A stretch of 23,665 nt of DNA from Streptomyces sp. NBC_01571. GTDB lineage: Bacteria; Actinomycetota; Actinomycetes; Streptomycetales; Streptomycetaceae. Under the pieces are notes generated by a model. That model did not search any database and had not been told where the DNA came from. It saw only the letters and a program-made list of their open reading frames with translations. The stretch is from assembly GCF_026339875.1 (NCBI RefSeq), contig NZ_JAPEPZ010000010.1, positions 1 to 23,665 on the forward strand, in the 5' to 3' direction. How positions within the stretch are numbered: position 1 is the first letter of the stretch; each line of letters opens with the position of its first letter. This document shows positions 5,350 to 23,295 of this stretch, piece after piece. The position numbers and the translations under genes were made by a program.

Positions 5350-5378
5350 GAGAGACCGGGAAGCCTTCACGCACTCGA

Positions 5379-5396
5379 TGTTGTCCGCGGACAACA
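5379..5396. promoter_or_regulatory. Palindrome copy 1, putative ParB site
   Basis: A perfect 18-bp palindrome, TGTTGTCCGCGGACAACA, in the parB-like duplicate. It is the shortest of six copies and defines the shared core. The parS/operator role is inferred from its exclusive association with parAB sequence. Confidence 0.65.
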
Positions 5397-5447
5397 AACC
5401 ACCTGCTCGTCCCCCTCCCCCGGTTCCTCCTGGAGTGCACCCAGCCC

Positions 5448-5471
5448 GTTTGTTGTCCGCGGACAACAAAC
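5448..5471. promoter_or_regulatory. Palindrome copy 2, putative ParB site
   Basis: A perfect 24-bp palindrome: the shared 18-bp core extended by GTT on the left and AAC on the right. Its centre is 72 bp from that of copy 1. Confidence 0.68.
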
Positions 5472-5480
5472 CGTCGTCCG

Positions 5481-5823
5481 TCCACGCCCGCCTGCCGATC
5501 CGAATACTGAAACAGCCCAGGGCTCCAGGAAGTGCTCGTGCACGACGAGCGCCCTCAGAAGTTCTCCGATGTCGATGGGCGGCGGCCGATGGCCTGTGTG
5601 TGCGCGCACCAACGGACCACCATGATCCCGATGGCGACCCGTGACAACCTCAGGTCGTAGCCCGGGCACGACGCGCCGAACCGGGGCGGTCGTGACCTCA
5701 GATTGAGCTGATCTCAGCCACCGGCCCGGGCACACTCCCCGACGAGTCCTGCTTAGGATCGATCCTGACGAAGAATCGAACAGATCGAACGACCCTTGCA
5801 TTAGACGTGGTTGCCGCGAAAGA
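5481..5823. other. Gap between the parB-like duplicate and the XRE pair
   Basis: About 340 bp without a supported gene. A minus-strand frame runs through it but changes character repeatedly and has no ribosome site. Around 5756-5792 there are several GATCGA-like words (GGATCGATCC, AATCGAAC, GATCGAAC) of unknown meaning. Confidence 0.4.
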
Positions 5824-5849
5824 CCGATGTTCCACATCTCCGACATCGG
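5824..5849 (-). terminator. Hairpin after the DUF2690 gene
   Basis: A 7-bp stem (CCGATGT with ACATCGG) has a 12-nt loop and lies immediately beyond the stop codon at 5852. On the minus strand it is followed by TCTTT. Probable terminator of the XRE pair. Confidence 0.55.
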
Positions 5850-5851
5850 GC

Positions 5852-6709
5852 TCAAGGCACAGGTCTCAGCCGGAAGCACTCTGGGTGCCGGCCCGACGGT
5901 TCGTAGCAGGCTTCAAGACGGCTGAGTTTGCTGCCGTTGAGCATAGGAGTCGTGACGGAACCTTCATCCATGTCCCGGACTTGCACTCGTTGAGAGCCAC
6001 CACCCTGACCTGAGATCTCGATTACGTCTCCGATGCCCGCTCGCCACAGCATCGCCCACACTGCATGGCACTGGGCGCTGTACCTGAAGCCCAGCAACGC
6101 ACCCACAGACGTCCGATACGGCTCCTCAGAGCCGATGTCCTCGACCTCTCCGGATGCCGCGCAGCCCATCATCAACGGATCCCGCCCTGCACACGTCTGG
6201 CCTTCGCAGCTCTGAGCCGGCGGCACGGAGTGTGCAGACTGCCGTGTGGGAGCCTTCGCACCCGTGCCAGGCATGGCTGTCACCACTGTCGCCGCAGCAG
6301 CGAGACCCAGCACGGCCGCCGCGGCAAAAGCCCACCAACGCCAACCGAGGTTCCACTTCGTCTCCTGGCTGACAGCAGCGCGATCCGCGGAAACGCTGCC
6401 AGTGGCTGGCCGCCTGTCCCCCTCCCCCGGCATCACCGTGGGCGCTGCCGCCTGCGCGCGCCCACTCCACTCCTGGTCGGCCAGTTCCCACAGCGCCAGC
6501 AACCGCCCCGGTGGCTCCCCCGCCACGGAACACAGGGCAACGACAGCTGCGCGCGGGGCGAGCTGATTTCCGTTGAGATAGCGCTGCCAGGACGACTTGC
6601 TGTACGCGGTGCGCTCTGCCAACATCGCCATGCTCAACCCGGTGCGAGCCTTGAGTTCCTGCAGTGCTTGCGCCAGCCGGGCACAGGCCGGTCGTGTGCT
6701 GTCTGTCAT
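5852..6709 (-). CDS. Membrane-anchored XRE-type HTH protein with DUF2690 domain
   Basis: The product has 285 aa from ATG 6709, whose ATGA overlaps the stop of the upstream gene. Residues of about 10-70 form an XRE-like helix-turn-helix (LKARTGLSMAMLAERTAYSK, then SSWQRYLNG). A linker follows, then one membrane helix near 125-147 (WWAFAAAAVLGLAAAATVV). The extracytoplasmic part has the DUF2690 signature: Cys pairs in CEGQTCAGRDP and MMGC, then GFRYSAQCHAVWAML and a C-terminal Cys pair (ACYEP, PECFR). The layout suggests a cytoplasmic DNA- or protein-binding head tethered to an external sensor-like domain; this is inference. Its head resembles that of the neighbouring gene product, so the pair probably arose by duplication. 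Confidence 0.85.
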   Translation of the reverse strand: MTDSTRPACARLAQALQELKARTGLSMAMLAERTAYSKSSWQRYLNGNQLAPRAAVVALCSVAGEPPGRLLALWELADQEWSGRAQAAAPTVMPGEGDRRPATGSVSADRAAVSQETKWNLGWRWWAFAAAAVLGLAAAATVVTAMPGTGAKAPTRQSAHSVPPAQSCEGQTCAGRDPLMMGCAASGEVEDIGSEEPYRTSVGALLGFRYSAQCHAVWAMLWRAGIGDVIEISGQGGGSQRVQVRDMDEGSVTTPMLNGSKLSRLEACYEPSGRHPECFRLRPVP

Positions 6710-7455
6710 TTCCGCAGGACCTGCCACGTGTGCAGCCCCACCACACCATCGGTGTACAGGCCGGCCTTCTTCTGCAGGAGCTTGACGGCCCGCGCGGTGT
6801 TCGCGCCGTAGACACCGTCCACGCCACCGGGGTCAAAGCCGTCGTGCTGCAGCAGGCACTGAACCTCCACGACGTCCCAGCCCTGCGACCCCTGCCCGAG
6901 TACTTTGACACGGGCGGTGCTGTGACCCGCGTACAGCTGCCCCTTCTGCCGCTTGAGTGGGCAGATATAGGTCTTGCCCGGCTGGTAGACGAACGCCGCC
7001 GCCGAGGCGGAAGCGGGCGCTGCCTCCTTCGTGCTTCCGTCCATATGGCTGCCGCCCTTCCAAGGAGCTGCCACCAGCAGTCCGGCGATGAGCGCGCCCA
7101 GGACTACCACAGTGCCAGTACCGATCAGTACTGCGGGACGGACGCCCCTCGGCTCGGAGACAGCCGGCTCAACTGACGTGCCGGCTACCGGCTGCCAAGC
7201 CTCCGCGGCCACCTCATGCAAGACCAGGACCCTCGTCGCATCGACGCCGGTCGCATGCGCCAACGCCTCCACCGCCTCCCGCGGCGGTAGCGCCCTTCCG
7301 TTGAGATACCGCTCCCAGGAGGAACGGCTGTACCCCGTCTTGGACTGAAGCGACGTCAGGCTCAGACCACTTCGGTCCTTCAGCCAGCGCAGCTGAACGA
7401 CCAGCTTCTGCGCTCGTTCATCGAGCGACGTCGGTAACGCCTTCCAACGCGACAT
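6706..7455 (-). CDS. Membrane-anchored XRE-type HTH protein with peptidoglycan-binding domain
   Basis: The product has 249 aa from ATG 7455; another ATG at 7467 is possible but has no ribosome site, whereas GGGGTGG precedes 7455. Residues of about 15-75 form an XRE-like fold (LKDRSGLSLTSLQSKTGYSR, SSWERYLNG), followed by one membrane helix near 107-130. The C-terminus (about 195-249) is a PG_binding_1 domain: VQCLLQHDGFDPGGVDGVYG, NTARAVKLLQKKAGL, DGVVGLHTWQVL. A cell-wall-binding exterior coupled to an HTH head could report on envelope state or position a complex at the wall. It overlaps the DUF2690 gene by 4 bp, so the two are almost certainly cotranslated. An IS3 element lies only 23 bp upstream of the start. 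Confidence 0.85.
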   Translation of the reverse strand: MSRWKALPTSLDERAQKLVVQLRWLKDRSGLSLTSLQSKTGYSRSSWERYLNGRALPPREAVEALAHATGVDATRVLVLHEVAAEAWQPVAGTSVEPAVSEPRGVRPAVLIGTGTVVVLGALIAGLLVAAPWKGGSHMDGSTKEAAPASASAAAFVYQPGKTYICPLKRQKGQLYAGHSTARVKVLGQGSQGWDVVEVQCLLQHDGFDPGGVDGVYGANTARAVKLLQKKAGLYTDGVVGLHTWQVLRK

Positions 7456-7509
7456 GTTCCACCCCATACGCGCTGAGCTGTCAATCCCCAGATTTCGTAG
7501 AGACGTTGG

Positions 7510-8451
7510 TTATGCGGCCCGGTCTTGTTGATCGGGCCGAGCTCGCGCTTGTTGGATGATCCGTTCGAACTCGACGGGTGGTTGCCCGCTGGCCGCGCTG
7601 TGGCGTCGTTTGGTGTTGTAGAAGTCCGCGATCCAGGTGGCGGTATTCAGTCGCGCCTCGGCGCGGGTGGCGAAACGGTGTCGGTGGACGTATTCGACCT
7701 TGAGGACCGAGTGGAACGACTCCGCGGCAGCGTTGTCCAGGGCGGAGCCGACACGGCCCATCGACTGCACCACGCCCCACCTGCCACAAAGCTGCCTGAA
7801 TGCCTCGGAGTTGTACTCCGATCCGCGGTCGGTGTGGAAAATGACGCCGTCCACTTGGCCGCCTCTGGTCGCGATCGCCATCTGCAGGGCGGCGCTGACC
7901 AGCGTCGTGTCGTGCCGGTCGCCCATCGCATAGCCCAGGGCCCGGCGGGAGAACGCGTCGTGCACGCTCGCGAGGTAGAGCTTGCCCTCGTCGGTGTCGA
8001 TCTCGGTCATGTCGCCCCACCACAAGATGTTCGGCGCGATCGCGTCGAACCTGCGCAGCACCAGGTCACGTGCCGTCTTCCGCTTCCCGGGACGGGTCAG
8101 CGAACGCCGGCGGCGTGGTGGCTTGCGGCCCTGCAGGCCGAGCTCGGCCATGATGTCGGCGACGGTGTTCTGCGATACCTGCCAGCCCTCCTCCCACAAG
8201 TCCAGCGTGATCCTCGGCGAGCCGTAGGTGCGGCCCGACCGGTCGAAGAAGTACGAGATCCGCTCGGCCAGCAGTGCCCGTCTGACCTCGCGTTTCGTCG
8301 GCTCGGACGGTCTGCGTCGCCACTTGTAGAACCACGCCTCCGACACCCCCAGGGCTCGACAGGAGGTGCGATGCGGAATCTTGAAATCGGTCCTCTGGTC
8401 GCTGATCACCCCGACGAGCGCCGCCGGGTCCGCAACAGCTACTTCACCCAC
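7510..8451 (-). CDS. IS3-family transposase OrfB (DDE catalytic subunit)
   Basis: The 313-aa frame starts at GTG 8451 and overlaps OrfA by 13 bp. A HTH_21-like region (GRTYGSPRITLDL) is followed by an rve integrase core. The catalytic triad is visible: D in WWGDMTEID, D in FHTDRGSEY, and E in AAAESFHSVLK, with FYNTKRRHSA after it. In this family the active enzyme is normally an OrfA-OrfB fusion made by programmed -1 frameshifting. The overlap is compatible with that, though I could not single out the slippery site. Confidence 0.92.
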   Translation of the reverse strand: MGEVAVADPAALVGVISDQRTDFKIPHRTSCRALGVSEAWFYKWRRRPSEPTKREVRRALLAERISYFFDRSGRTYGSPRITLDLWEEGWQVSQNTVADIMAELGLQGRKPPRRRRSLTRPGKRKTARDLVLRRFDAIAPNILWWGDMTEIDTDEGKLYLASVHDAFSRRALGYAMGDRHDTTLVSAALQMAIATRGGQVDGVIFHTDRGSEYNSEAFRQLCGRWGVVQSMGRVGSALDNAAAESFHSVLKVEYVHRHRFATRAEARLNTATWIADFYNTKRRHSAASGQPPVEFERIIQQARARPDQQDRAA

Positions 8452-8729
8452 AGGACCATGCAGCGTTTGAGGACATCACGCTCCATGACCAGCTCCTTGT
8501 TGTCCCGCTTGAGCTGGGCATTCTCCCGTCGCAACCGCGCAAGTTCCTCGCTCTCACCCGTCGGACCGGCCTTGCCGGCCGCCCGTGCCCTCGACACCCA
8601 GGTGGCCAGCGTCGTCTCGTTGATCCCGAGGTCCTTCGCGACCTGTGGGATCGGCTTGCTGGTCTCCGCCACGATCCGCACAGCCCCCTCACGGAACTCC
8701 GCGTCGAACTTCCGCCTCTTGCCCGCCAT
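8439..8729 (-). CDS. IS3-family transposase OrfA (HTH protein)
   Basis: The 96-aa protein starts at ATG 8729 (MAGKRRKFDAEF), with GAGGG just upstream; an earlier in-frame GTG at 8738 is less likely. It has the HTH_Tnp_1 fold (FREGAVRIV, then VAKDLGINETTLATWVSRAR) followed by a leucine-zipper-like coiled coil (LARLRRENAQLKRDNKELV). It recognises the element's ends and, fused to OrfB, forms the transposase. Confidence 0.92.
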   Translation of the reverse strand: MAGKRRKFDAEFREGAVRIVAETSKPIPQVAKDLGINETTLATWVSRARAAGKAGPTGESEELARLRRENAQLKRDNKELVMERDVLKRCMVLWVK

Positions 8730-8781
8730 GACCCTCAACTTCCCCTGCAGTCACGGTCTCTACGCTACGAGGGGAAGGTCA

Positions 8782-8856
8782 AGCCGACACCCGTACGTCA
8801 AGATCTACATCCACACCGTGTTCGACGACTGCAAGGGCTACATCCACCTCTACTGA
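8782..8856 (+). pseudogene. Possible C-terminal gene fragment next to IS3
   Basis: The frame HPYVKIYIHTVFDDCKGY...LY ends at TGA 8854-8856 and looks more protein-like than its surroundings. It runs back only to the IS3 border. Because the IS duplicated just 3 bp, the sequence to the left of the IS should continue it, but that is the upstream region of an oppositely oriented gene. This is probably an older fragment. Family not recognised. Confidence 0.25.
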
Positions 8857-8999
8857 CACATCGCGCCGACCGGCACGGAACCTCGCTGCGTCGCCGCAGG
8901 GAGAGTCGCGTACGGGCCCGGGAGCCGCTCGCTCGAAGCCCCAGCACCGTGCCGATCAGCGGTGCCTGGCAGCGCACCTGGCGACAGCGCCTCGCCATA

Positions 9000-9044
9000 C
9001 AGACGCCTCGGTCCCGTGACCACGTCACGGGACCGAGGCGTCTG
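9000..9044. terminator. Perfect 21-bp hairpin after parB
   Basis: A 21-bp inverted repeat (9000-9020 with 9024-9044) has a 3-nt loop, CAC, and begins CAGACGCCTCGGTCCCGTGAC. It lies 31 bp beyond the parB stop. It is the strongest hairpin in the window and would work as a bidirectional terminator. Confidence 0.88.
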
Positions 9045-9075
9045 AGCGTGTCAGAGCGAATGCCGAGGTGGCCGA

Positions 9076-10281
9076 TCAGCCAGAAGCGGCACCTGCAGAG
9101 ACGCGTTCCTCGAGCAACTGGGTCAGCTCCGCCAGCTCCTCAGCCGTCAGGTGTTCGGCCAGCTCATCGACGATCTGCTGAGGACTGCGGAGCACGATGG
9201 ACGGCGCCACGGGCGTGCTGCCTGCTTGCTGAGCAGGGACCGAGGGCGAGGAAGACCGGGAGGCCTTCACGCCCTGGTTGTTGTCCGCGGACAACAACGC
9301 CTGTGCAGGAGCAGCCTCTGGTGCCTCGGGTAGCGTTCCGTCGGGCGCGGCAGAGGAGGGGTTCTCTGCGTCTGGTTTGTTGTCCGCGGACAACAAACCG
9401 GTAGGCCCGTCATCCTCCCCCGGTTCCTCCTGGGGTGCATCCTGCTTGTTGTCCGCGGACAACAAACCGTCGCCAGCGCCGACCCCGTCGGCTGCTCGGA
9501 CGGCTTGTACGGCCGCGATTTCCTCGGCACGCTTGCGCGCGGCGAGATCCTTCAGGTCCTTGAGGTAATCGAGCAGGCCAGCCGCATCCACGCCTGGGTT
9601 TTCCTTGCCGTGCCGCGCCAGAGTCCGGCCATCGCGTTCCGGGAGCTCGCCGGAGCTGAGCATCGCCTGCAGCTCATCTGGGAGTTCGAGCAGACTCAGC
9701 TGGTTGGTCACCCACGACCTGTCCTTGCCGAGGCGTTCCGCGGCACGGGATCGCGCGCCGCGCTCAGACTGTTCCCCGCAGACGATGACGAGCGACCGGA
9801 CACCGCGCGCTCGTTCGATGACGTCGAAGTCTTCGCGCTCCAGGTTCTCCTGGAGGAGATGGTTTATGAACGCCTCGCGGCTGGAGGCCAGGTCGTCGCG
9901 GACAACGAAGTCCAGGGCGTCCATGCCGACATGGACGGCGCTGCGGAAGCGTCGCTCGCCGTTGACCAGGACGTGGGCAACCTCGCCGATCCGCTCGGCG
10001 TGGTCGGGCCACAGGGCGAGGTAGGCGGTGCGGGACACGGCGACGCACGCGGCGAGCTGGGCCTGGCGCAGTTCCTCGCCGAAGCGTGTCTTGTCCTCGT
10101 CGGTGCCGAAGTTGCGGCGCGGGTTGAGGGGAGTGGGGGAGACCTCGTCCAGCCGCAGCCGGACCAGCTCGTAGGTGGGCACGTCTCCCTGGGTCACCGC
10201 CTTCGCGCGACCGCGGGCGCTGCGGGTGCGCCGCGCTTCACTGAACGAAGATCCGGTTCCCAGCCGGTCGGCGACGCTCAT
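9076..10281 (-). CDS. parB: ParB-family partition protein with palindromes in its coding sequence
   Basis: The 401-aa product starts at ATG 10281, whose ATGA overlaps the parA stop. The ParB N-terminal domain has NPRRNF (53-58), NGERRFR (107-113) and HLLQENLERED (141-151). In this family the GERRxR motif belongs to the CTP-binding clamp. A helix-turn-helix follows at about 178-200 (SRAAERLGKDRSWVTNQLS). Residues 265-360 form an acidic, Pro/Ala-rich linker with three copies of LLSADNK/N at 273, 296 and 329, each encoded by a perfect 20-26 bp palindrome. The C-terminal 40 residues (SPQQIVDELAEHLTAEELAE...) look helical, for dimerisation. It would load on centromere sites and, with ParA, segregate the replicon. 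The HTH contacts and the meaning of the linker repeats are inferred. Confidence 0.92.
   Translation of the reverse strand: MSVADRLGTGSSFSEARRTRSARGRAKAVTQGDVPTYELVRLRLDEVSPTPLNPRRNFGTDEDKTRFGEELRQAQLAACVAVSRTAYLALWPDHAERIGEVAHVLVNGERRFRSAVHVGMDALDFVVRDDLASSREAFINHLLQENLEREDFDVIERARGVRSLVIVCGEQSERGARSRAAERLGKDRSWVTNQLSLLELPDELQAMLSSGELPERDGRTLARHGKENPGVDAAGLLDYLKDLKDLAARKRAEEIAAVQAVRAADGVGAGDGLLSADNKQDAPQEEPGEDDGPTGLLSADNKPDAENPSSAAPDGTLPEAPEAAPAQALLSADNNQGVKASRSSSPSVPAQQAGSTPVAPSIVLRSPQQIVDELAEHLTAEELAELTQLLEERVSAGAASG
9277..9298. promoter_or_regulatory. Palindrome copy 3, inside parB
   Basis: A perfect 22-bp palindrome: the shared 18-bp core extended by GT on the left and AC on the right. 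It encodes residues 329-335 (LLSADNN) of ParB. Its centre is 99 bp (33 codons) from copy 4. Confidence 0.7.
9374..9399. promoter_or_regulatory. Palindrome copy 4, inside parB
   Basis: A perfect 26-bp palindrome: the core extended by GGTT on the left and AACC on the right. It encodes ParB residues 296-302 (LLSADNK). Its centre is 69 bp (23 codons) from copy 5. Confidence 0.72.
9446..9465. promoter_or_regulatory. Palindrome copy 5, inside parB
   Basis: A perfect 20-bp palindrome, TTGTTGTCCGCGGACAACAA, encoding ParB residues 273-279 (LLSADNK). Confidence 0.7.
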
Positions 10282-11435
10282 CCGCTGATCCTCCGTGCGA
10301 TAGTCCGCATTGCTTCTGCCTGTTCGCAGTAGGGGGCGTGCGCGAGCAGGGGAGCCTTGACCCGCACTGCCTCCCGTTGGTCTTTCAGCTCCGGCACGAT
10401 GGCCAGCACCGGCGGCTCCCCGATCTTCTGCCACTGCTCGAGGGATGACGTCGCCACGTAGCCCTTGCGGCTGTCGTACATGTTGACCACGAAGCCGAGC
10501 TGGACGATGTCGACGTCCAAGTCCTCGACCAGGTCCTGGATTTGCTCCTCGAGCATGTCGTACGCATCGGCCGACGAGTCCTCGGACAACACGGGAATGA
10601 CGATGCCCGACGTGCCTGCCTCTTCGCCGTCCCGGGCACGGCAGTAGTAGATCGCCGTGTCCATGCTGTAGCCGAGGCTCGGAGGGCAGTCGACGACGAC
10701 GAAGTCGAAGTCCCCCTCCAGCGGCTCCAGCGCCTTCTCCAGCGCGGTCTCCTTGATACGCACCACGCGGCTGGTCGCGAGCTTGGCGTCCAGCAAGAAG
10801 GCGTCCTTGCACGCAGGGAGGAGCCAGAGATGGTCCTCGAAGTCGCCACCCCTTATCGGCACGAGCAGGTCCGCGAGCTCCCCGTCCTTGACCTCACCGA
10901 GCATGTGCTTCGCGAGGCTCGGGCTGTCGATCCCGATGAGCGGGTGACCGAGCTGCTTCGTCAGGTGCCCCTGAGGGTCGAAGTCGATCAGCAGAGTGCG
11001 GTGACCGGACTCCGCGAGAGCCTGGGCAACGCCCGCCGACACAGACGTCTTGCCGACCCCGCCCTTCTGGTTCCCGAAGATGATGCGCCGCGCGCCCGAG
11101 CTGCGCTGCGGCTTGGAACGCGGCGAGGGGTGTTCATCCAGCCACAGCCGGATCGACTGAGCGATGCCCTGGTTGTAGCTGATGCCGCGGGCCTTGCAGT
11201 CCTTCTTGAGCTTGTCGTACAGCCCAGCCGGCAGGTACGTCGCGAAGGACGTACCACCCGTGGTGTCGACGAGCGGCCGGCCCTTGGCCTTACGCCACGC
11301 ATCGACGCCCTGCGTCACGGCATCCTGAATGTCGGTATCTGCCTCGGCTGCGCGGACTTTCAACTCTTTGCGCAGCGCCGCAGGCAGCTTGGCGACTACC
11401 TTTTCCCGATCACTGGGGTCGTACGGAGCGGTCAT
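10278..11435 (-). CDS. parA: ParA-family partition ATPase with two N-terminal RHH-like segments
   Basis: The 385-aa product starts at ATG 11435. The deviant Walker A motif GNQKGGVGKT lies at 121-130 with the signature Lys (KGGVGKT). Then come LLIDFDPQGHLTKQLG and Walker B-like FDFVVVDCPPSLG. These mark a ParA/MinD ATPase that binds DNA and positions ParB-bound DNA. The first 105 residues hold two segments that look like ribbon-helix-helix units: KLPAALRKELKVRAAEADT (near 16-48) and ATYLPAGLYDKLKKDCKARG (near 65-98). They may let ParA bind its own promoter. parB follows with a 4-bp overlap. A palindrome at 11490-11515 lies about 55 bp upstream and probably serves as operator. The ribosome site is weak (AAGG). 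Confidence 0.93.
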   Translation of the reverse strand: MTAPYDPSDREKVVAKLPAALRKELKVRAAEADTDIQDAVTQGVDAWRKAKGRPLVDTTGGTSFATYLPAGLYDKLKKDCKARGISYNQGIAQSIRLWLDEHPSPRSKPQRSSGARRIIFGNQKGGVGKTSVSAGVAQALAESGHRTLLIDFDPQGHLTKQLGHPLIGIDSPSLAKHMLGEVKDGELADLLVPIRGGDFEDHLWLLPACKDAFLLDAKLATSRVVRIKETALEKALEPLEGDFDFVVVDCPPSLGYSMDTAIYYCRARDGEEAGTSGIVIPVLSEDSSADAYDMLEEQIQDLVEDLDVDIVQLGFVVNMYDSRKGYVATSSLEQWQKIGEPPVLAIVPELKDQREAVRVKAPLLAHAPYCEQAEAMRTIARRISG

Positions 11436-11489
11436 GGCGCTACCTTACTCACCCGACGTCCGGTATGACAGCAGGACCCCAGGTGTCTC

Positions 11490-11515
11490 GAGTTGTTGTC
11501 CGCGGACAACAACTC
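11490..11515. promoter_or_regulatory. Palindrome copy 6, upstream of parA
   Basis: A perfect 26-bp palindrome with the shared 18-bp core extended by GAGT on the left and ACTC on the right. It lies 55 bp before the parA start, where the parAB promoter should be; no clear -35/-10 pair can be assigned. Its position suggests an operator for autoregulation as well as a centromere site. Confidence 0.72.
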
Positions 11516-11749
11516 CCGATCGGTGAAGACGGATCCCGCGCGCCTCTCGGCAGAGGTCGCCCGATGCGAGACCAGAGCCGACACGAACGGCGTTCGAAGA
11601 CTTCTGGACACCTCCCGCTTGATGCGCTGACCTGCAGATGTCCTGAAAAAGCCCAAACAGTACATCGGATCCCAATACGGCTGATCCTTTGTCAGTGCCC
11701 GCCGCCAGCATGGTGATTCGACGAGACGAAGGACCTATGGGGGGATCAG

Positions 11750-12100
11750 ATGCCGTTTATTCGGCCCTATGTGCGATCCGACGGGACGCCTGTACGCGGC
11801 CATTCACGATGGGCACCGGGCGCACGCCGAGAGATGACCATCCTCGCCTGTGTAACCCTGGCCGTAGTCGCCTTCGGGCACAACGGAGGCCAAGCCGCGC
11901 AAGACACCGGCCCGCAGAAGTCGCCCGGCCACTACCCGGTTACCTCCAACCAGAGCACCGGTCACGCACCCCGCGTGGCCCAGCCGCGCCCCACGGTGTC
12001 GTACCCCATCAAGTTCAACACCGCGAAGACCAAGCGGAAGCGGCCCGCACCGGCCGTCTCCTACCCCATCGACTTCTCCACCCTTGGCAGCAGCCGGTGA
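11750..12100 (+). CDS. Single-pass membrane protein, partner of the Mrr-like nuclease
   Basis: The 116-aa product starts at ATG 11750, preceded by a G-rich ribosome site (GGGGGGAT, 3 nt away). A short basic N-terminus leads to one hydrophobic segment near residues 29-44 (MTILACVTLAVVAFG). A Pro/Thr/Lys-rich tail contains two similar blocks, PTVSYPIKFNTAKTK and PAVSYPIDFSTLG. Its TGA overlaps the GTG of the nuclease gene (GTGA, 12097-12100), so the two are translationally coupled. Function unknown; it may be a membrane partner or secreted accessory of the nuclease. The 234-bp gap upstream shows no gene and should hold the promoter. Confidence 0.68.
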   Translation: MPFIRPYVRSDGTPVRGHSRWAPGARREMTILACVTLAVVAFGHNGGQAAQDTGPQKSPGHYPVTSNQSTGHAPRVAQPRPTVSYPIKFNTAKTKRKRPAPAVSYPIDFSTLGSSR

Positions 12101-12798
12101 CCCGCCGGCCGCCCGCCCGGCGACCCGCACGCCGCCCAAGCCGGCGCCGCAAGCAACAGCAGGACACTCAGCTCGTCGCCGCAGGCGTGGCCGCGGCCGC
12201 CGCCATCGGCCTTGTGGTCGTAGTGGTGAACTGGTTGCTGGCGCACTGGTGGATCCTGCTCGCAGCCCTCCTGCTGGGGGCGTTGGCCGCCGGCGGATGG
12301 TGGCAGCAGCGCCAACAGCGCCTGGAGTGGGAGCGGGTCAAGCAGCGCGCCCTCCGGTACGCGATCTCGCAGCTCGACGCACTGACCCACCAGCAATTCG
12401 AAGTCGCCGTCCGAGACCTGATGCGACGCGACGGCTGCTCAGACGCCCTTCGCGTGGGAGGTAGGGGAGACCTCGGCGCCGATGTGAAGGCCACCGATCC
12501 TCACGGCCGACGCTGGGTCATCCAGTGCAAGCACCGCCGAAGCGGTAACGAGGGAGCCGCAGTCGGCACACCCGACCTCCAAGTCCTCAACGGAACCGGA
12601 CGCCCCGTCCACAAAGCCGACGTCGTCGTTTTGGTGACCAACGGGCGGATCACACAGCCCGGCCGTGACTTCGCACGCCAGCAACGCCTCCACCTGGTCG
12701 ACCGGCAGGTGCTGGCGCAGTGGGCCACGGGGAGCCGCCCTCTGTGGGAGCTCCTGCCGCTGATCCCGCCGCCACGAAGGCCGACAGCCCTTTCCTGA
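12097..12798 (+). CDS. Membrane-anchored Mrr-like restriction endonuclease
   Basis: The product has 233 aa from GTG 12097, in GTGA overlap with the upstream stop. An Arg-rich N-terminus is followed by two adjacent membrane helices (about 26-46 and 50-67). The cytoplasmic domain is an Mrr_cat-type PD-(D/E)XK nuclease: LTHQQFEVAVRDLMRRDG (97-113), GGRGDLGADV with candidate Asp 125/129, and IQCKH, where Q143-x-K145 replaces the classic ExK. VVVLVTNGRITQPGRDFA and LVDRQVLAQW complete the fold. Such proteins are widespread in Streptomyces. By analogy with Mrr it may cut methylated or foreign DNA at the membrane, but no target can be read from sequence. Confidence 0.87.
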   Translation: MTRRPPARRPARRPSRRRKQQQDTQLVAAGVAAAAAIGLVVVVVNWLLAHWWILLAALLLGALAAGGWWQQRQQRLEWERVKQRALRYAISQLDALTHQQFEVAVRDLMRRDGCSDALRVGGRGDLGADVKATDPHGRRWVIQCKHRRSGNEGAAVGTPDLQVLNGTGRPVHKADVVVLVTNGRITQPGRDFARQQRLHLVDRQVLAQWATGSRPLWELLPLIPPPRRPTALS

Positions 12799-13618: not shown

Positions 13619-14158
13619 TCAGTGTCCGAGCAGGGGTACGTCGATCTCGCCCAGGTGGTAGGCGCGGACGGCCTGGACGAGTTCGTCGACGGAGAGCTGG
13701 CCGTCGCCGTTGGCGTCGATCTGGCGGAAGGCGTCTGCCGGGGTGACGTTGGTGACGCCGATGGCGTCCAGCCACGTCTTGAACTCGCCGGGGTTGACCT
13801 GGCCGTCGCCGTCCACGTCCACCAGCTCGACCATGGCCCGGATGACCGGCTTGACGACCCGGCTGAAGCCGGCGCCGCCGTTTTCGAGGACGTGCTCCTC
13901 GGCGATGTGGTTGAACTGCTCGGGGGTCAGCGCGCCGTTGTGCTCGTCGATCCCGGCCTTGTCGGCGAAGAAGGCCCACATGCCCAGGTAGGCGTCGGTG
14001 AGGGAGCGGCCGGCCGGGGAGACGGGTGCCTCACCGAAGGCCTGCAGGATGCGCTTGGCCTCGGCGTCCCAGTCGGCGCGGTCGATCTGGCCGTCGCCGT
14101 TGACGTCCCAGCTGTCGAAGCGCTGCTGGATACGGTTGAGCTGCACGGAAGTGGTCAT
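13619..14158 (-). CDS. EF-hand calcium-binding protein (calerythrin/CabD-like)
   Basis: The 179-aa protein starts at ATG 14158 (MTTSVQLNRIQQRF), with GGGAG 9 nt upstream; a longer frame to 14260 has no support. Three canonical EF loops are visible: DVNGDGQIDRAD (18-29), DVDGDGQVNPGE (114-125) and DANGDGQLSVDE (148-159). A fourth, at about 66-80 (DKAGIDEHNGALTPE), is degenerate. Spacing and length match the soluble calerythrin-type proteins of actinomycetes, which bind Ca2+ as buffers or sensors. There is no signal peptide, so it is cytoplasmic. It stands alone, with its own terminator at 13548-13580. Confidence 0.9.
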   Translation of the reverse strand: MTTSVQLNRIQQRFDSWDVNGDGQIDRADWDAEAKRILQAFGEAPVSPAGRSLTDAYLGMWAFFADKAGIDEHNGALTPEQFNHIAEEHVLENGGAGFSRVVKPVIRAMVELVDVDGDGQVNPGEFKTWLDAIGVTNVTPADAFRQIDANGDGQLSVDELVQAVRAYHLGEIDVPLLGH

Positions 14159-14535
14159 CTCGGAGATCTCCCGGAGGTTCGTCCGGGCGGGGCCGGTCCA
14201 GGACAGGGCCGGCCCCGCCCGGGGACATGTGCGAAGCGCCCACAGCATCGGCTCGGGCACTGCATGTCACGGTAGTGACGCTTCGGGTGGCCTACCGGGT
14301 GTGCGGGCCCATGTGGGTGACGGCGTGGACGCGGTGCCGGTTCTGCCCCGGACAGCGTCCATTGGACGCAGTGAAAAGCGGCTGTCAGGAGTGGCTCAGC
14401 ACGTTGCCGCTCCTGGCCGCGTGGGTGACGCCGCCAACACGCTGCCTGGATGCGCAGCCAGTTGGTATGAACGGCCGACATGGTCGCGGTCGGGGTGGTG
14501 TGCCCGTTGGTGTGGCCGGGTAGGGAGTCGACCAT
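14159..14535. other. Gap upstream of the iterons
   Basis: About 375 bp with no supported gene. It contains the divergent upstream region of the EF-hand gene and a small hairpin (GTCAC, GGTA, GTGAC near 14267-14280). A plus frame at 14227-14523 has no ribosome site or motif. Confidence 0.4.
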
Positions 14536-20799: not shown

Positions 20800-23295
20800 C
20801 TACCAGCGCATGCCGAGGTCATCGAGCTCCGCACGGCGCTGCTCGCTCAGCTTTCCCGCCCTGCGGCGTGCGTTGTCGAGAAACGCTCCGAGCTTGACCT
20901 GCTCGCCCGCGACGTCCTCCACCGCCTTCCTCGGCACCCGCAGATGCCCCTCGCGAGCGCGGAACTGGCGGGCGGCGGCGACGTTGGCCGCCCACCGGTC
21001 GTCCTGGGTCCGCCGGACCGGCGCCACCGCCTCACCATCAGCCGGCGCTCCGACCCCAATCGATTCCAGCAGGAACCGCTGCGCGGGCATCAGCCGCTCC
21101 CACCCGACCCGCTGCGCCACGACCCACGCCCCCAGGTCCTCGCCCTGCACGACCAGCTCCCCACCCACACCCGGGAGCTCACCCCCGGCACGGACGTGAG
21201 CGAGAGCGAGCCTCAGACTGCGTTGCCACCCGATCTCCCACGCCGGACACCACCCCGGATCCACCTCCGCCAGAGCCTCCATACGGCCCTCAGACAGCTC
21301 CCCGGCATACGAGAGGCCCATCTCCCCCGCGAGGCGCCGTTCAGCGTTCTCCACCGCCTTCTTGGCCGCTGCACGCTGATTCTTGGCCCACACCCCCAGC
21401 GGGAACGCATCCCACACCACGGAAGCGGCGGGCAGGAAGTGCCCGTGCACGGCCGCGTACGCGCGGGCCACATCCAGGCCGGCATCCCACGCGGAAGCGT
21501 GCACCGACCAGACCATGCCCAGCCTCTCCAACTCCGCCACGCGTGAGGCCTCCAGCGTTCCGGCCGTGTAGTACCGCCGCTGGTCCGCGATCCACGCCCC
21601 GAGCGGATGCGACCCGACTGAGGACCAGTCCTCCGGTGTGACGTACGTGAACGGCACCCGCAGCTCCGCGCTGCCGGTCTCGCGTAGCCACCTGGTCGCG
21701 GCCTCGATGCCACGCCGCCAGTACGCGCCCTCGGGATCGATGACCCGCAGCTGCACGAACTGGGTGAGCGCGGCCGGGTCGCGTTCCTCGGTGAACCGCA
21801 GCACTCCCGCAGCCCGCGACGACACCCGCACCGCCTCCGAGTCGACGCCCTCCAGGACCTCGTCGGCCCCGTCCAACTCGCCGCCCTCAGCGTCCTGTTC
21901 GGCCGCCGGTCGGCTGTTGCGCAGACGAGGGTCCGCGAGCGCCTCGATCGTGTCCGCGTCGTGCGCCCGGAGGGCTCCGAGGACCTTGCTCAAGGTGCTG
22001 TAAGCATCCGAAGTGAGCAACGCATTCGGATCTTCACCCGGCCCGAGGAACACCGGAACCACCAGCGAGGCCAGTTTTCCACGCCCCGGATGCAACCGCA
22101 GCGCACGCCCCACCATCTGCACAATATCGACCATCGAACCGCGCGCATCCGAGAAAAGAACAGCATCACACTCGGCAGTATCGACACCCTCACCGAGAAC
22201 ACGAACAGACGACAAAACACGAAACTCGGCACGCACATTCTGTCCCTCGAATTCAGGACCACCGAGGTAATCGGAAGCGAATTCGTCCAACACCGCCCGG
22301 CGGTGCCCGGGAGCGTGCTCGCCATACAGCCACTCCGCCCACACCTGCTCCACAGGCGGGTACACGTCCGGCTCCTGCTCCGCTAGCCGGGCCGCGACCG
22401 CCGGCACTGACACGGCCATCGCCTCCGCCTCACCCACCCGACTGTGAAAGCTCAGCACACGGCGGAAGCGTTCCTCCACCGCCGCATGCATCAACCCCGT
22501 CTGCACAGCCGCCAACCGCGCGCCGCGCACCGCGTCAGAACCTGTGTCCTCGCTGGTCAAAGCCGCGTACAAGTCCGGGTCACGGATGTCCAGGCACAGC
22601 ACCTGATAGGGCGCCACGATCCCCCGGCTAACCGCCTCCGACAAGGTGAGCTTGTACGCCACCGGTCCGAAGACGGGCGAGCCATCCTCCATCGACGCCA
22701 CCAACCGCGGCCGCTCACCCTCCGCCTCCCACACCCGCGCCGTCGCCGTCATATACAACCGACGCTCCGCCGGAAGCTGCGCCTGGTCGTGCACGGCTGC
22801 CCAAGGCTTGAGGCCGTCGCCGCTTGTGCGGTGGGCCTCGTCCACCACCATCAGGCTCCATACGGGCAGACCAGCCGCGTGAGCGCGCTGGAGGATGCCC
22901 AGCCCGACGGACGCGTACGTCGCGAACACCGTGACCGTCTCCAACCCGGTCACCCACGCGAGGAGTTCGTCTGGGTCGGTCGTGCAGGGCAGGCCCTGGC
23001 TCTCCTCAGCCCTCAGCGAGCAGACGCCGATCATCGCTCCGGTCCGACCGGCACGTCGCCAGGCGCCGGCCATCTGCGTCAGCAGGTCCAGCGTCGGCAC
23101 CAAAACCAGCACCCGGCGGGCGGAAAGCCGGTTCGCAGACTCCACGCCGATCAGGGTTTTACCGGATCCTGTGGCGGCAATTACCTGTGTCCGCAAGCCA
23201 TCCGGAGGAATGCGCCCTCCGAGAGGAACGCCGAGAATGCGAGCGACGTTATCGACAGCCTCGACCTGATGCGGGCGCAATTCCATCTGAGTCAC
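20800..23295 (-). CDS. Telomere-adjacent DEAD/DEAH-type helicase with helicase-associated repeats
   Basis: The product has 831 aa from GTG 23295; ATG 23286 is an alternative, and neither has a strong ribosome site. The helicase core shows Walker A ATGSGKT (41-47), DEAH (152-155), TAT (183-185) and motif VI-like GRALRLHPGRGK (near 405), with VLGEGVDTAECDAVLF before it. The C-terminal third has repeated helicase-associated (HA) domains with W/G-rich signatures: LERLGMVWSVHASAWD, YAAVHGHFLPA, FPLGVWAKNQR, REGHLRVPRK, LGAFLDNARRR. Genes of this type lie next to the telomeres of Streptomyces linear plasmids and chromosomes, directed inward, as here; some are linked to conjugal transfer of linear replicons (ttrA-like). 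Assignment to that role rests on position and domain order. Confidence 0.9.
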   Translation of the reverse strand: MTQMELRPHQVEAVDNVARILGVPLGGRIPPDGLRTQVIAATGSGKTLIGVESANRLSARRVLVLVPTLDLLTQMAGAWRRAGRTGAMIGVCSLRAEESQGLPCTTDPDELLAWVTGLETVTVFATYASVGLGILQRAHAAGLPVWSLMVVDEAHRTSGDGLKPWAAVHDQAQLPAERRLYMTATARVWEAEGERPRLVASMEDGSPVFGPVAYKLTLSEAVSRGIVAPYQVLCLDIRDPDLYAALTSEDTGSDAVRGARLAAVQTGLMHAAVEERFRRVLSFHSRVGEAEAMAVSVPAVAARLAEQEPDVYPPVEQVWAEWLYGEHAPGHRRAVLDEFASDYLGGPEFEGQNVRAEFRVLSSVRVLGEGVDTAECDAVLFSDARGSMVDIVQMVGRALRLHPGRGKLASLVVPVFLGPGEDPNALLTSDAYSTLSKVLGALRAHDADTIEALADPRLRNSRPAAEQDAEGGELDGADEVLEGVDSEAVRVSSRAAGVLRFTEERDPAALTQFVQLRVIDPEGAYWRRGIEAATRWLRETGSAELRVPFTYVTPEDWSSVGSHPLGAWIADQRRYYTAGTLEASRVAELERLGMVWSVHASAWDAGLDVARAYAAVHGHFLPAASVVWDAFPLGVWAKNQRAAAKKAVENAERRLAGEMGLSYAGELSEGRMEALAEVDPGWCPAWEIGWQRSLRLALAHVRAGGELPGVGGELVVQGEDLGAWVVAQRVGWERLMPAQRFLLESIGVGAPADGEAVAPVRRTQDDRWAANVAAARQFRAREGHLRVPRKAVEDVAGEQVKLGAFLDNARRRAGKLSEQRRAELDDLGMRW

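Follow-up and report, generated by a model that had tools for sequence, protein, structure and literature searches.

Palindromes at a plasmid-type partition locus

Six perfect palindromes lie in and around a parAB operon on a 23,665-bp contig of Streptomyces sp. NBC_01571 (NZ_JAPEPZ010000010.1). This whole contig is referred to below as the window. We consider it highly probable (roughly 0.92), from comparative sequence analysis, that these palindromes serve as parS, forming the centromere of a type I ParABS partition system carried by a Streptomyces plasmid or by a contig of plasmid origin. Systems of this type use a ParB with a helix-turn-helix (HTH) domain and cytidine triphosphatase (CTPase) motifs. 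The centromere reading is strongly supported because the palindrome recurs with homologous parAB genes and because its letters match residues in the ParB recognition helix. A first-pass annotation had called the palindromes the likely centromere of this locus, and both observations bear that out. The relevant features are as follows.

5379 to 5396, no strand: palindrome of 18 bp, within a decayed copy of the parB 3' region
5448 to 5471, no strand: palindrome of 24 bp, within the same decayed copy
9277 to 9298, no strand: palindrome of 22 bp, candidate parS, in parB, where it reads LSADNN
9374 to 9399, no strand: palindrome of 26 bp, candidate parS, in parB, where it reads LSADNK
9446 to 9465, no strand: palindrome of 20 bp, candidate parS, in parB, where it reads LSADNK
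11490 to 11515, no strand: palindrome of 26 bp, candidate parS, possibly also an operator, lying about 55 bp ahead of the parA start
9076 to 10281, minus strand: parB, 401 amino acids, ParB N-terminal region plus HTH_ParB domain (Pfam HTH_ParB, 7e-12)
10278 to 11435, minus strand: parA, 385 amino acids, Walker-type ParA ATPase (AAA_31, 8e-25; CbiA, 5e-20)
5353 to 5503, minus strand: degenerate, non-genic copy of the 3' region of parB (blastn match to parB; repeat families D2 and D9)

The coordinates and lengths (18 to 26 bp) given for the palindromes by the first-pass annotation were reproduced, and each palindrome is centered on the sequence TGTTGTCCGCGGACAACA, which begins at positions 5379, 5451, 9279, 9378, 9447, and 11494. 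That annotation found no seventh copy in the window, and none appears when up to three mismatches are allowed. The same scan is expected to yield 0.02 matches per shuffled window, and none of 100 shuffles reached six. These six are also the only palindromes of at least 18 bp in the window, with the next longest being 14 bp, and 40 shuffled windows gave a mean of 0.28 such palindromes and a maximum of 2. Confinement to the partition locus holds as well: no other copy with zero or one mismatch exists in the 11.5-Mb genome (15 contigs), and two-mismatch matches to the palindrome core occur at two places.

Judged by its sequence, the window locus has the components of a type I HTH-ParB system, namely a ParA ATPase, a ParB with HTH and CTPase motifs, and nearby palindromes. 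The ATG of parB overlaps the parA stop codon (ATGA), placing the Walker ATPase gene in an operon with parB. The HTH_ParB score was obtained with a longer open reading frame, and the start of the 401-residue protein was chosen separately. Its closest sequences in the PDB are Spo0J/ParB/Noc proteins. Residues G108, E109, R110, and R111, and likewise E145, N146, and R149, are invariant in 13 aligned ParBs, and we take these GERR and ENxxR segments to be the CTP-binding motifs. The “parB-like duplicate” of the first-pass annotation stands as about 150 bp resembling the parB 3' end (87% identity over 53 bp and 80% over 129 bp by blastn), but it does not stand as a gene.

Recurrence beside related parAB genes

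The first-pass annotation had proposed searching for the palindrome across replicons, and this search finds it beside homologous parAB genes on Streptomyces and Kitasatospora replicons. The 18-mer is present in 23 of 392 genomes of the genus. Among the 22 genomes other than that of the window, 17 encode a ParB of 56 to 78% identity to the window protein within the fetched stretch; the remaining five comprise one locus with a remote ParB (L032, 32%) and four with no ParB in the fetched stretch (L043 to L046). In a scan of 384 genomes, single 16-mers of non-palindromic forms are scattered among the matches listed, and thus a lone 16-mer can arise by chance.

Plasmid records were likewise examined. 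The 59 records nearest by ParB (H175 to H233) include 37 that are among the 60 listed of 65 motif records, and both ParB and sites were read in three of these 37 (L050, L051, and L067). Of the other 22 records, 20 were read, and none of them has the window's helix signature (DRSW..N) or its palindrome type, designated A below. Another repeated palindrome is carried by 19 of these 20, the exception being L061, and these palindromes sit in similar places: within parB, just after it, and further downstream. Among viral contigs, no ParB relative was confirmed, and seven stretches have the 16-mer, none with recognized par genes.

Palindrome letters vary with the ParB recognition helix

The window's recognition helix was located by alignment to a Caulobacter ParB structure.

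9694 to 9729, minus strand: recognition-helix codons, ParB residues 185 to 196 (GKDRSWVTNQLS), aligned to Caulobacter ParB chain 6t1f

Residues 187 to 190 and 193 of 54 ParBs were tabulated against the palindrome half-site, without counting mismatched sites. This set includes L177 and omits L109, and six loci that repeat a ParB already sampled were dropped. A single table of helix “dialects” accommodates 52 of the 54 proteins.

Dialect A: helix DRSW..N, half-site GTTGTCCG, n = 28
Dialect B: helix DRSW..H, half-site GTTGTACG, n = 6
Dialect C: helix SPSW..N, half-site TTTTGTCCG, n = 5
Dialect D: helix S[RK]AW..N, half-site GTTGACCG, n = 6 (L063 with one palindrome mismatch)
Dialect F: helix [ST][KAG]GW..Q, half-site TTTACCG, n = 5
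Dialect G: helix SPSW..H, half-site TTTTGACCG or CTTTGACCG, n = 2
Unfitted: L061 (SPAW..H, no repeated site) and L032 (TPAW..Q, ParB of 32% identity, one A site)

Within 6 kb of parB, the exact sites at any one of these loci never come from more than one dialect. A dialect E, once assigned to single palindromes in L061 and L063, was withdrawn for L063, whose direct repeats are five D-like sites with one mismatch. The best ParB match among phage records is from Streptomyces phage ZL12 (43%), which belongs to dialect F.

The most informative cases are those that cross lines of descent. The ParB of L206 is 91% identical over 231 residues to that of L053, a dialect C protein, and carries the change N193H; its sites (TTTTGACCG versus TTTTGTCCG) differ by one letter per half-site. 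A single C-like site with a mismatch (a 14-bp palindrome at position 6433) remains in this dialect G locus and is possibly a relic of a specificity switch. The ParB of L063 is 67% identical to A-dialect ParBs versus 59 to 61% to those of dialect D, yet it has the D-type helix SRAW..N and the D-like sites noted above. Even within dialect F, the base just outside TTTACCG is G at 14 of 14 sites for TK helices (L065 and L211) and C at 9 of 9 sites for SA and SG helices (L064, L210, and L213).

A tree of 42 ParBs was built after removing the helix columns, omitting L109 (a wrong-frame match) and L177 (short). Outside the helix, A-dialect ParBs are 50 to 100% identical to the window protein, and B, C, and D ParBs are 70 to 77% identical. 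A mainly Kitasatospora clade with only 50 to 54% identity to the window ParB keeps both DRSW..N and the A palindrome. Because of this tree and the L206, L063, and dialect F contrasts, the site is seen to follow the helix better than it follows overall relatedness.

Arginine or lysine at residue 188 accompanies a G as the outer half-site base (A, B, D, and the TK form of F), and proline, alanine, or glycine accompanies a non-G outer base (C, G, and the SA and SG forms of F). Structural work on Caulobacter ParB bound to parS showed a bond from R173 to guanine 1 and placed N178 with the conserved residues in contact with parS (PMC7383237). These two residues align with R188 and N193 of the window ParB, which by comparison may have corresponding roles.

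Observations that weigh against the centromere reading

Several observations count against this interpretation or reduce the weight of its evidence. In five of the 23 genomes that have the 18-mer, an A-type ParB is missing. The first-pass annotation had named a motif lacking its matching parAB as the finding that would speak against its proposal; such cases do occur, but only as a minority. When the whole genomes were searched (E ≤ 1e-15), four of the five (G308, G335, G088, and G345) proved to encode only ParBs of 31 to 41% identity, and the fifth (G253) yielded no ParB at all. Five ParBs read from orphan-site genomes have helices other than the A type. The orphan A-dialect sites are located at position 9909 of L043, 12239 and 12323 of L044, 9894 of L045, 9922 of L046, and 9955 of L032. 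They are unlike chance matches because their palindromes span 18 to 48 bp. One precedes a predicted phage integrase by about 36 bp, and another, a 48-bp palindrome, follows a parB of a different type at a distance of no more than about 35 bp.

The dialect table is subject to similar cautions. It fails to place L032, whose remote ParB (TPAW..Q) is accompanied by one A site, and L061, which has no repeated site. Most A loci were found via the motif, so only their shared helix, and not their A sites, is informative, and the G row was entered after its sites had been seen. B, C, and D each form one clade in the helix-free tree. Replacement of N by H coincides with an altered letter at -3 in one background but at -4 in a second, so a simple rule of one residue to one base does not hold.

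A rule fixed in writing before ten further loci were fetched gave seven predictions, and all seven were right (B, B, B, C, D, D, and F), with no exact sites of another dialect at those loci. The other three loci received no prediction; L206 and L208 showed G, and L210 showed F. The seven correctly predicted ParBs are 80 to 99% identical to proteins already sampled, and the predictions are therefore weak by themselves, since shared ancestry would give the same result. For this reason, the weight falls on the contrasts that cross ancestry.

A more ambitious proposal is that plasmid incompatibility groups are defined by six or more mutually exclusive dialects, with roughly five helix residues (187 to 190 and 193) determining the dialect, that L206 represents a switch in progress, and that the orphan A sites are hitchhiker centromeres using the ParB of a co-resident plasmid. 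We regard this as speculative and rather doubtful. The title of one report (PMC10954446) speaks of a plasmid that hijacks the parABS of another plasmid.

Constraint at the DNA level and site architecture

A comparison of 182 exact sites from dialects A to D places 75 within parB, 22 upstream of parA, and 85 downstream and far, where the classes outside the gene are distance bins (L109 was omitted from this comparison and from the codon analysis below). In A-dialect loci (under 0.5 Mb), 134 of the 16-mers are exact, whereas 10 have one mismatch, 2 have two, and 6 have three. In several relatives, a site lies at -1226 to -1236 from the parB start, approximately where the window has its parA-upstream site.

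Complementarity also extends beyond the core. Compared with mispaired sites, the arms stay complementary over roughly five steps at the 75 sites in parB and the 22 sites upstream of parA, and in downstream and far sites (85) they exceed mispaired sites at all twelve steps examined. Palindromes reach at least 34 bp at 8 of the 20 sites that follow the parB stop by no more than 150 bp, versus 14 of the 87 remaining non-coding sites; some sites may thus also act as terminators. Five loci (L048, L034, L050, L031, and L028) have perfect palindromes of 48 to 72 bp centered on the site, a length that should far exceed the recognition need expected of ParB. In one of these loci, L028 (G128:C2:45500-65400), a plasmid-type parAB with A sites lies about 55 kb from the end of a 12.3-Mb contig, possibly as a plasmid fused to the chromosome arm.

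Alternative explanations

The extended arms raise the possibility that the sites are RNA hairpins, acting as terminators or attenuators, with long arms selected for transcription and ParB recognition being secondary. The arms outside the core are complementary beyond chance, long palindromes are commoner just after parB, and three window sites fold better than shuffled sequences (z of -3.7, -4.5, and -2.3). However, the letters of the core are fixed and shift together with the helix of ParB, long arms are missing at many sites, and a pattern scan detected no T-run terminator at the sites. The hairpin that does follow the window parB lacks the motif. We therefore consider an RNA function very unlikely as the primary explanation. 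A conserved LSADN peptide, with the in-gene palindrome as a by-product of its codons, deserves even less credence. Although 64 of 65 in-parB A sites share one reading frame, the LSAD[NK] peptides use TTG-TCC in 71 of 71 cases, while TTG accounts for 141 of 1790 leucine codons elsewhere in the same genes, and this codon use led us to reject a peptide-level explanation of the in-gene copies. The identical 16-mer is moreover found outside parB, and dialects D and C alter the peptide (LTAVN and LSADKS) along with the helix.

It is also very improbable that some other regulator, such as the two HTH_31 proteins encoded at 5852 to 7467, uses the palindromes chiefly as its operators. One palindrome does lie just upstream of parA with two HTH genes nearby, and a like gene pair (DUF2690 and peptidoglycan-binding proteins) sits beside parB in NBC_01455. 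Yet many of the sites fall in parB or after it (75 of 182 in the gene), the neighboring genes differ in the gene tables of other dialect loci, and the dialect follows the ParB helix. That same match to the helix points to ParB rather than to a replication-origin iteron or telomere element situated near parAB by accident. Repetition of the sites and the presence of many relatives on linear plasmids would suit an iteron or telomere element, but no replication initiator family was found among the window open reading frames scanned (20 of the 94 listed, plus 9 in another scan), and we give this explanation almost no weight.

Comparison with known partition systems

The centromere reading places the locus among several known systems. 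The linear plasmid SCP1 of Streptomyces coelicolor carries ParABS1 and ParABS2, which like the window system are of the type I HTH-ParB kind. Their inverted repeats measure 13 bp (parS1) and 19 bp (parS2, with a 15-bp core), three identical repeats surround each parAB, and each ParB is specific for its own parS (PMC13245405). The window parS is an even palindrome of 18 bp, and the odd lengths of the SCP1 repeats, compared by description rather than by letters, disfavor identity with them. SCP2 ParA-ParT-parS shares with the window a Streptomyces plasmid host, an 18-bp inverted-repeat parS, and a site inside the gene for the binding protein. ParT lacks a CTPase domain (PMC12260392), whereas the window ParB keeps GERR and ENxxR; here too, parS was compared by description only.

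Chromosomal ParB-parS and Noc-NBS are related to the window system by sequence and rely on the same recognition-helix logic (PMC7383237). Their site letters differ from those of the window. In agreement with the first-pass annotation, the chromosomal Streptomyces parS was rejected as the identity of the palindromes, as its core GTTTCACGTGAAAC, taken from that annotation, has no match in the window at up to two mismatches.

In contrast, the repABC parS consensus GTTNNNNGCNNNNAAC (PMC9040568) fits the window 16-mer GTTGTCCGCGGACAAC exactly. A scan of the genome collection for this 16-mer yielded at least 120 stretches, and these plus seven viral stretches (127 in total) were compared by querying pieces no longer than 8 kb with the window ParA/ParB and a single RepA/RepB pair. 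Among the matches listed, 46 best match repA/repB, 15 best match Streptomycetaceae parAB, and 66 match neither, the last class including sites whose genes lie outside the piece as well as chance 16-mers. The window ParB and repABC RepB are remote from each other, and no RepC family member was detected among 20 window open reading frames scanned, including those flanking parB. RepB helices at the 16-mer loci, among the matches listed, have D-K or D-R at the place of window D187-R188 and are mostly VDKAALSK-like rather than DRSW..N, which makes convergence likelier than common descent.

Two assignments of A sites in other loci are in doubt, and other candidate parS elements were noted there. The A site of L032 is doubtful as the parS of its own ParB, given that the end of this remote Streptomyces parB carries the repeats ATTAACCGGGTTAAC (L032:10156-10296), a candidate odd-length parS. 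Other Streptomyces plasmids have an in-gene palindrome, TGACTCCAATTGGAGTCA, in an operon of parA and a gene that we read as ParT-like (L219:4246-4267 and L220:4248-4265), and L044 has the corresponding in-gene palindrome ACTCGAATTCGAGT (12780-12793). These are candidate parS sites of a ParA and ParT-like family. The ParT-like genes had no family match; SCP2 ParT also has a site within its own gene (PMC12260392). It is similarly doubtful that the A sites of L044 serve its ParT-like gene, because in two relatives the palindrome within the gene is a different one.

Neighboring features of the window

Beyond the partition genes, the window has a hairpin that may terminate parAB transcription.

9000 to 9044, minus strand: long hairpin of 45 bases, possible parAB terminator, 31 bp after the parB stop

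When positions 8985 to 9055 were folded, this structure had an energy of -50.5 kcal/mol (z of -7.3). It is absent from the terminator pattern-scan list, having no T run.

Between the degenerate parB copy and parB are the two HTH_31 genes and an integrase-core transposase gene, which we read as IS3-like. A gene with an Mrr-type endonuclease domain (11689 to 12798) is transcribed divergently from parA. NBC_01455 and pSV2 also have annotated restriction endonuclease genes close to parA. Near the contig end is a helicase gene with HA domains (20800 to 23295). Helicases with HA domains are likewise annotated close to parAB on the linear plasmids L055, L060, and L204, and this resemblance suggests a linear-plasmid setting. 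At the contig start (1 to 1711), a DUF772/DDE transposase gene is flanked by inverted repeats (1 to 43 and 1669 to 1711), and the assembly probably breaks at this insertion sequence. The window also encodes a protein with three EF-hand motifs (13619 to 14260). Elsewhere in the genome is a second, remote ParB gene (G000:C6:53656-54495; 33% identity, helix SSGWVTQR), which probably belongs to another plasmid with another parS.

Proposed mechanism and significance

For the ParABS system of the window, we infer ParB binding, CTP use, sliding, segregation, and regulation as follows. A ParB dimer would read two half-sites TGTTGTCCG via its HTH domain; R188 in the recognition helix would contact the outer G, and other residues of that helix would contact the inner bases. 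The bound protein would then close as a CTP clamp and slide, and a ParA gradient would move the ParB-coated region, with the several sites acting as repeated loading points. It is plausible that the parA-upstream site is also an operator through which ParB may dampen parAB transcription, because it lies so close to the parA start and has a similar position in several relatives. The copies within parB are translated in frame as LSADN, and this peptide falls in a variable part of the protein that separates the DNA-binding region from the C-terminal one. With sites inside parB, the centromere of a plasmid would travel with the gene for its own binding protein.

ParABS itself is an ordinary, known kind of partition system. 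In the searched open literature, we found no description of this parS carried inside parB, of its dialects, of this plasmid ParB family, or of covariation between parS and the recognition helix. The letters of the 14-mer or 16-mer were not found in open-licence full text (figures and supplements lay outside the search), where only a 10-mer inside them matched, in line with the first-pass annotation, which knew of no description.

Partition systems on Streptomyces plasmids are described as poorly characterized (PMC13245405). On sequence comparison, the correspondence between helix and site is clear across relatives, and the family offers a ready comparative set in which near-identical ParBs have different palindromes and distant ParBs have the same one. 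The 16-mer held in common with alphaproteobacterial repABC loci suggests, in addition, that a remote ParB and RepB have converged on one palindrome. With such a set, the sequence of a ParB would suffice to predict its parS, and the evolution of centromere specificity and plasmid incompatibility becomes directly testable with a few point mutants.

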